The notes beneath the pieces were generated by a model. That model did not search any database. It was given only the letters and a program-made list of their open reading frames with translations, and was not told where the DNA came from. The translations under genes were made by a program, and so were the position numbers. A stretch of 64,000 bases of DNA, from assembly GCA_021732415.1 (NCBI GenBank), contig JAKFVC010000103.1, forward strand, positions 1 to 64,000, read 5' to 3'. This document shows, piece by piece, positions 20,796 through 22,147 of this stretch (the first letter of the stretch is position 1; each line of letters starts with the position of its first letter). This stretch comes from Planctomycetaceae bacterium (lineage in GTDB: Bacteria; Planctomycetota; Planctomycetia; Planctomycetales; Planctomycetaceae).

Positions 20796-21935
20796 TTATT
20801 CCCCCTGCAACCGGATCGACTGCGGGCCGATCCATTCATCTGCCGAGGCGTTGTAGCCGTCATAGCGGACGAAATGCAGTCCGTACCAGCTATCGCGCAC
20901 TGTTGCGGGATACCATTTGTCGTCGATCTCCCACCGCACCTGGACTTTGTCTCCGGCTGCGAATTGCCACGGCTGATAGGGGCGGCGGCGTTCTGGACCC
21001 ACCCATTCGTCCCAGGACGCGTCGTAGTTGATGTAGCGCACCTTCCACTGGTTTCCGTTCACCTCGATCGTCCGCGCTTTGTACCATTTCCCTTTGTATT
21101 CGACTTCAATTCGTGCTCCGACCGGGGGCTTCCACGGCTGCTTGGCCTGGACGAAGACCGTTCCCGCAGGAAACCCATGGGCCGAAAAGAACATCGACTT
21201 TTGCCCTTCGACGAAAGCCAGTTCCGTTTCGCTGTGCCGCGCCACTTCAGCCAGCGTCACAGTGCGGTCGCCATCGAGATCCGTGTTCGATTCACCGCGC
21301 AACCCCGCGAGGACACTGTCGCTAAAAGTCCATTTGCCGGTCGAGGAATTGTGGGAATAAGACGACGTCAGAACGGCATACGCGATGTGTGACTGATGAT
21401 GCTTGCGGGCTTCGTCGTACAGGGCGCCGGAATGACAGCAGTCGGCCAGCAACAACGCCTGCCGACCGTGAAACCGGGCTTCGATCGTCTTGAAGATCTC
21501 GCGGACATTCCAAGCGGAGTCACGTTCTTCCCCGGCATCGTAGTTCGCAAACCAGGTTTCGCCGGCGCCGCGGTCGCGAGATCCATGTCCGCAGAAATAG
21601 AAGACGAGCAAATCTCCCGGCTGAGTTCGGTCGAGGAGTTTACCGAACTCACTCACGATACGTGCCTTGGTGGCGTGGGCATCTTGCAGGTAAACCGTAC
21701 GGTCTTTCGTCACGCCCGCCTGTTCGAAGTAGCGAACGAGCTGCTCGTCGCGACGATTGACCTTCGCAGCCGGGAATGACTTCCACATTTCCGGATGCTG
21801 CCATTCCAGCAGTCCGACAGCGAAGACCCACGTTTTCGCGGGATTCCACCGTGGAGGTTCTTCCGCGACGACCGGAGTCGCCGGAATCAACGCACAGCCG
21901 ACGATGAACCAAGTGTGGAAACGAAGTTGGTTCAT
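20796..21935 (-). CDS. secreted caspase-like (C14) protein with tandem Tudor/chromo-barrel-like domains
   Basis: 379 residues. Signal peptide (cleavage near VVA-E). Caspase-fold domain about 34-262 with the catalytic dyad His117 in YFCGHGS and Cys167 in ADCCHSG, the metacaspase-type arrangement. An EF-hand-like loop DLDGDRTVTLAE at 219-230 could bind calcium. Residues about 272-378 are two repeats of a small barrel motif: KWYKARTIEV..VRYINYDASWDEWVG and KWYPATVRDS..VRYDGYNASADEWIG. This is the signature of Tudor-knot/agenet/MBT-like domains known mainly from eukaryotic chromatin proteins. It is predicted to be an Arg/Lys-specific peptidase acting outside the cytoplasm; the target of the barrels is unknown. 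Confidence 0.85.
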   Translation of the reverse strand: MNQLRFHTWFIVGCALIPATPVVAEEPPRWNPAKTWVFAVGLLEWQHPEMWKSFPAAKVNRRDEQLVRYFEQAGVTKDRTVYLQDAHATKARIVSEFGKLLDRTQPGDLLVFYFCGHGSRDRGAGETWFANYDAGEERDSAWNVREIFKTIEARFHGRQALLLADCCHSGALYDEARKHHQSHIAYAVLTSSYSHNSSTGKWTFSDSVLAGLRGESNTDLDGDRTVTLAEVARHSETELAFVEGQKSMFFSAHGFPAGTVFVQAKQPWKPPVGARIEVEYKGKWYKARTIEVNGNQWKVRYINYDASWDEWVGPERRRPYQPWQFAAGDKVQVRWEIDDKWYPATVRDSWYGLHFVRYDGYNASADEWIGPQSIRLQGE

Positions 21936-22044: not shown

Positions 22045-22147
22045 GTAGCCTTCATCGCTCCGCGTGAAGATCGCCGAGCGCGCGAACAAACTGGTAAGGC
22101 ATTCGACCGCGAGTTCGGCTGACTTCACGCGGAGCGATGAAGGCTAC
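22045..22147. repeat. perfect inverted repeat overlapping a stop codon
   Basis: Arms 22045-22069 and 22123-22147 pair perfectly over 25 bases (GTAGCCTTCATCGCTCCGCG and onward). The final GGCTAC contains the TAG stop (complement of 22144-22146) of the minus-strand hydrolase. Confidence 0.95.

Follow-up and report, generated by a model that had tools for sequence, protein, structure and literature searches.

A caspase-like planctomycete protein with a predicted signal peptide and tandem Tudor/chromo-type barrels

Secreted bacterial chromo-like domains are commonly fused to caspase-like peptidases, planctomycetes included (Kaur, Iyer, Subramanian, and Aravind 2018; PMC5906684). The aromatic cage is conserved in bacterial chromo-like domains, the domains occur consistently in secreted proteins, and methylated-lysine-like groups in murein or matrix peptides have been proposed as their ligands (PMC5906684). 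The contexts in which caspase and chromo-like domains are joined are unlike any in eukaryotes, parallel architectures with ordinary bacterial SH3 domains have been described, and an origin of the eukaryotic domains from the bacterial ones has been proposed (PMC5906684).

A gene of this kind lies in a 64,000-nucleotide stretch of DNA from a Planctomycetaceae bacterium (the window; GenBank assembly GCA_021732415.1, contig JAKFVC010000103.1, positions 1 to 64,000). Its product combines a predicted signal peptide, a caspase-like peptidase and chromo-like domains in one protein. Since it has every feature of the class described by Kaur et al. (2018), it is a member of that class, and the caspase-barrel architecture itself is not new. 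An earlier note on this DNA had called the combination a eukaryote-like domain pairing. This is misleading, because the architecture is a common bacterial one and Kaur et al. derive the eukaryotic domains from those of bacteria (PMC5906684).

Gene, family and surroundings

The gene (20796-21935, minus strand, as for all features of the protein given below) starts with ATG and encodes 379 amino acids. Pfam matches of the protein to Peptidase_C14 (5e-7) and Tudor-knot (6e-5) are both above the gathering cut-offs, and those to the Tudor_4, MORC2 chromo and MBT profiles are below theirs. The motif KWYxA...RY...DEW[VI]G occurs in two copies, at about residues 283-313 and 340-370. The earlier note had described a signal peptide, a caspase domain with His117 and Cys167, a loop at residues 219-230 and this double motif, and all were seen as claimed. 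A genome profile search found no second gene with such barrels in the same genome.

A search of 99 related genomes returned seven further full-length relatives (L002-L008), which range from 92% down to about 23-27% identical. In a scan of the species genomes in GTDB, 31 loci turned up in Planctomycetota (Schlesneria, Lacipirellula, Pirellula, Planctomicrobium and others), Cyanobacteriota, Acidobacteriota and Myxococcota, with Verrucomicrobiota represented by a fragment. The survey of caspase and barrel fusions proposed earlier found them in at least four phyla. Residues D165, C167, S198, T199, W202, T203, D219, F241, E243, Q245, W341 and W368 are invariant (n=31), and Y358 in barrel 2 is invariant or almost so. 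Compared with the 92%-identical relative L031, dN/dS is 0.06 for the gene as a whole, 0.03 for the caspase domain and 0 for barrel 2. It is a real gene that is conserved and subject to strong purifying selection.

The fusion is scattered and uncommon, as counts in evenly drawn samples indicate. The barrel profile matched in 28/297 genomes of the class, 18/199 of the phylum and 17/292 of the cyanobacteria, and the caspase-barrel fusion itself, with open frames read by eye, was present in about 13, about 12 and 6 of these, respectively. In a tree obtained by a quick search without bootstraps, most cyanobacterial members form one clade (99% SH-aLRT) and the protein studied here groups with its Schlesneria relatives. 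A viral origin was considered and rejected: viral contigs, when scanned, yielded a single distant caspase match.

The neighbouring genes encode an aldo-keto reductase, an S33-type hydrolase, a BD-FAE esterase, Dus, Maf and a YHS-domain proline-rich protein. No partner gene recurs across the loci of the relatives that would hint at a substrate or regulator, and only near relatives share neighbours. An operon was rejected on this ground and because the same-strand upstream esterase gene ends about 209 bp away. Membership in a defence system was likewise rejected: PADLOC matches the protein to nothing but its generic caspase model, and no partner gene recurs from locus to locus. Promoter and terminator scans found nothing. 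The caspase-barrel enzyme apparently works as a unit of one gene.

A perfect 24-bp inverted repeat, GTAGCCTTCATCGCTCCGCGTGAA, lies immediately upstream of the caspase gene and abuts the end of the esterase gene; its arms are at 22045-22068 (plus strand) and 22124-22147 (minus strand), with about 55 bp between them. At up to 2 mismatches its core has 14 copies in the genome, of which several form inverted pairs at short distance, against 0 for the reversed control pattern. The repeat resembles small dispersed elements of the MITE or REP kind. The genome also encodes one SET-domain (lysine methyltransferase-like) protein (G000:C57:41709-41996, an open frame of ~154 aa, E 1.5e-14); nothing was found that ties it to an exported target.

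Caspase domain and EF-hand-like loop

AlphaFold2 modelled the full-length protein from 27 sequences with pLDDT 92.2 and pTM 0.87. Residues 33-263 (21147-21839) adopt a caspase fold in this model, and their closest fold matches are legumain (Z 20.9, 2.2 A over 193) and metacaspase-4 (Z 20.8, 2.8 A over 213). Caspases follow with Z near 20, so that legumain, metacaspase-4 and caspase entries are tied. Together with a Pfam match to Peptidase_C14 in 27/27 relatives, the Z of about 20 to caspases, metacaspases and legumains supports a caspase alpha/beta fold. It is not a member of the EACC1-associated caspases (NCBIfam NF047832), against which it scores 52.8 bits where the curated cut-off is 140.

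His117 (21585-21587) lies within YFCGHG and Cys167 within DCCHSG, and a HMMER alignment equates them with the catalytic residues His86 and Cys139 of AtMC4. The dyad is retained throughout the core family, with Cys167 in 31/31 sequences and His117 in 29/29 that are readable. Asp165-Cys166-Cys167 (21435-21443) supplies the nucleophile, Cys167, and a probable S1 acid, Asp165. The p10 part contributes a loop S198-T-G-x-W202-T203 (21327-21344), in which the four named positions S198, T199, W202 and T203 belong to the invariant set.

In AtMC4 the pocket for a basic residue consists of Asp137, Ser84, Asp352 and Ser350 (PMC7206013). The invariant D165 corresponds to Asp137. The position of Ser84 is occupied here by C115 and across the family mostly by Ala or Cys, also by Thr or Asn, and the equivalents of Asp352 and Ser350 in p10 have no reliable alignment, so that one of the four pocket residues is clearly kept. 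Another residue, R61, is invariant and precedes the invariant D63 by two residues; at its site, other planctomycete caspases (L023 and L026) have a Cys-x-x-Asp motif. The earlier label of a metacaspase with Arg/Lys cleavage agrees with the fold, the dyad and the match of D165 to Asp137, but the replaced Ser84, the invariant R61 near D63 and the equally close legumain fold leave it putative. Arg/Lys specificity is an unproven candidate.

The EF-hand-like loop at residues 219-230 (DLDGDRTVTLAE; 21246-21281) has D219, D221, D223, T227 and E230 at ligand positions 1, 3, 5, 9 and 12, and helices at 203-212 and 228-243 flank it in the AlphaFold2 model. Conservation supports the assignment made earlier: position 1 is D in 31/31 sequences, position 3 is D/N in 29/31, position 5 is D/N in 31/31, position 8 is I/V/L in 31/31 and position 12 is E/D in 31/31. 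Pfam EF-hand_5 matches 4/27 relatives and does not match the protein studied here at E 0.1. The loop is not unique to the caspase-barrel family, since a similar one was seen in 2/8 other planctomycete caspases examined.

Barrels, aromatic cage and predicted export

Barrel 1 comprises residues 271-322 (20970-21125) and barrel 2 residues 325-377 (20805-20963). Modelled alone, the barrels reach pLDDT 94.7, and their best fold matches are Tbtudor (Z 10.7) and MRG2 (Z 10.6, 0.8 A over 53, and 10.4, 0.7 A over 52), followed by the UHRF1 tandem Tudor, MRG15 and further domains that are nearly all of the royal family. Foldseek ranks the tandem Tudor/agenet proteins FXR2, AGDP1, FMRP and ADCP1 at the top, and a barrel profile searched against the PDB gives MBT (3e-11), EAF3 (3e-10) and MRG2 (2.5e-9). 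As modelled, both barrels really belong to the Tudor/chromo-barrel (royal) superfamily. The likeness to Tudor, agenet and MBT domains noticed earlier is thus borne out, and an unrelated SH3 barrel was rejected on fold comparison and profiles that give almost solely royal-family domains.

The chromodomain of MRG2 binds H3K4me3/H3K36me3, and its cage for trimethyl-lysine is formed by His62, Tyr67, Tyr87, Trp90 and Trp94 (PMC4161306). By sequence alignment, these correspond to Y280, Y285, Y301, Y304 and W308 in barrel 1, and the alignment of the two barrels extends them to W335, Y342, Y358, Y361 and A365 in barrel 2. On this mapping, the cage positions are aromatic in 5/5 cases in barrel 1 and in 4/5 in barrel 2, A365 being the exception. 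Across the family, positions 1 to 5 are aromatic in 23/31, 31/31, 31/31, 23/26 (non-gap) and 13/30 sequences in barrel 1, and in 20/31, 31/31, 31/31, 29/30 and 22/31 in barrel 2, where the position of A365 is Trp in 22/31. The central cage tyrosines are therefore fixed and the rim is variable. Because of A365 in barrel 2 and the fifth position of barrel 1, aromatic in only 13/30, the ligand may not be methyl-lysine.

Such barrels were also seen in other company. Three planctomycete proteins (L113, L116 and L111) have one C-terminal barrel behind an apparent protease, which when read by eye appears to be a trypsin-like serine protease with a GNSGGPV motif in L113 and a BlaR1/M56-type metallopeptidase in L111. 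Three exported planctomycete proteins (L077, L078 and L083) have three tandem barrels ahead of a further C-terminal domain.

A Sec signal peptide is predicted at residues 1-24 (MNQLRFHTWFIVGCALIPATPVVA|EE, with cleavage at VVA|EE; 21864-21935), with a maximum 10-residue hydropathy of 2.39; signal peptides were judged by a hydropathy check and by comparison with relatives. A lipoprotein was rejected: there is a lipobox-like FIVGC, but the preceding hydrophobic stretch is short and the Cys is absent in relatives such as L032 and L033. Where the N-terminus can be read, the start is hydrophobic and Sec-like in most planctomycete relatives, three relatives (L040, L058 and L059) have Tat-like twin-arginine starts, and in L042, L046 and L099 the N-terminus is apparently truncated or misread. 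In four cyanobacterial members (L043, L047, L056 and L127) there is an in-frame stop at 8-16 codons ahead of the caspase domain, which leaves no room for a signal peptide. Longer, non-hydrophobic N-terminal starts occur in L044, L045, L041 and L124, and the first two and the last of these probably also lack a signal peptide. The description as secreted accordingly fits the protein studied here and most planctomycete relatives, judged by hydropathy, but not several cyanobacterial members. The caspase-barrel enzyme is not always exported, and a ligand in the cell wall cannot account for the family as a whole. The cyanobacterial members without a signal peptide look like exceptions to the secretion rule of Kaur et al. 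and may be new. A set of ~440-aa cyanobacterial proteins (L133-L137, L141 and L142; MDKSIIQLVDELPTDNITVKVLKALD...) likewise lacks a signal peptide and ends in two Tudor-type barrels.

Proposed function and comparison with known proteins

The best explanation, at a probability of roughly 0.6, is an exported, probably periplasmic or surface-released caspase-clan cysteine endopeptidase that is guided or anchored by cage barrels and carries a Ca2+ loop. The signal peptide would take the protein across the inner membrane, and the caspase domain would cleave peptides by means of the His117/Cys167 dyad. Ca2+ held by residues 219-230 would probably stabilise or switch on the p10 side of the active site. 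The aromatic cages of the tandem barrels may hold a peptide side chain that is modified or cationic, which could deliver the protease to its substrate or tether it to material of the cell wall or matrix. What stands of the earlier interpretation is the exported caspase-fold protein with its dyad, EF-hand-like loop and royal-family barrels; the metacaspase label is putative, the eukaryote-like pairing is misleading, and secretion does not extend to several cyanobacterial members.

Bacterial SH3 domains are thought to be generic peptide-binding or structural modules in the cell wall. The barrels could be generic SH3-fold modules of this sort rather than readers of modified side chains, or an autoinhibitory or substrate-orienting part folded onto the caspase domain. 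In its favour, the cage is variable at position 5 and not aromatic in every sequence at positions 1 and 4, ordinary SH3 domains occupy parallel architectures (PMC5906684), and the pTM of 0.87 predicts a fixed packing of barrels and caspase domain with fair confidence. This view is nevertheless rather improbable, as two cage tyrosine positions are aromatic in 31/31 sequences in both barrels and the closest folds are almost all readers of methylated Lys or Arg. It is very unlikely that the caspase fold serves as a mere scaffold in a pseudoprotease or a binding protein. Prokaryotic caspase homologues without the dyad are common and only 64% of planctomycete sequences keep it (PMC3501461), but all relatives in which these positions are readable have His117, Cys167 and D165.

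The protease might also cut not after Arg or Lys but after Asn, Asp or another residue, through an amphoteric S1 pocket of R61 and D165 as in legumain. R61 is invariant where L023 and L026 have the Cys-x-x-Asp motif, legumain ties for the best fold match, and Peptidase_C13 matches 9/27 relatives weakly, although it gives no match to the protein studied here at E 0.1. Sequence matches to metacaspases are clearly better than to legumain, and the place of R61 in the pocket is putative, which leaves such a specificity doubtful. A wider and more speculative proposal, rated as distinctly unlikely, is a modification-guided protease with several sites of action. Planctomycetes, acidobacteria and myxobacteria would export it, and in a clade of cyanobacteria it would be cytosolic, with the tandem barrels reading methylated or otherwise modified Lys/Arg on the cell's own proteins and directing caspase cleavage there. 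If true, bacteria would have a reader-protease, contrary to the view that their chromo-like domains are always extracellular.

A compact and well-defined family lets the published idea that cage barrels guide extracellular proteases be tested on one small soluble protein. Binding of methyl-lysine-like groups by the barrels would support a bacterial origin of chromatin readers, and with the members that lack a signal peptide the question would also concern protein methylation inside cyanobacterial cells.

Plant metacaspase-4 and -9 (C14B) share with the protein the caspase fold, the His/Cys dyad and an Asp two residues before the Cys; unlike them, it has no linker domain and no Ser84, and it has the invariant R61, the EF-hand-like loop and fused barrels. 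Legumain (C13) has an acidic residue two positions before its catalytic Cys, as the protein has, and matches its fold as well as metacaspase does, but sequence matches are weak, and barrels stand in place of a legumain-type prodomain. The chromo barrels of MRG2, MRG15 and EAF3 and the tandem Tudor/agenet domains of FXR1/2 and ADCP1/AGDP1 have the same five-stranded barrel and cage residues, with a like tandem order in FXR2 and ADCP1; in contrast to the protein, they are eukaryotic, intracellular and chiefly histone readers. The caspase-chromo fusions of Kaur et al. (2018) are alike in signal peptide, caspase-like peptidase, tandem chromo-like (Tudor-type) barrels and conserved cage, and the protein shows no essential difference from them. 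What is added to that class is the built-in EF-hand-like loop, one coherent family in at least four phyla and members without a signal peptide.
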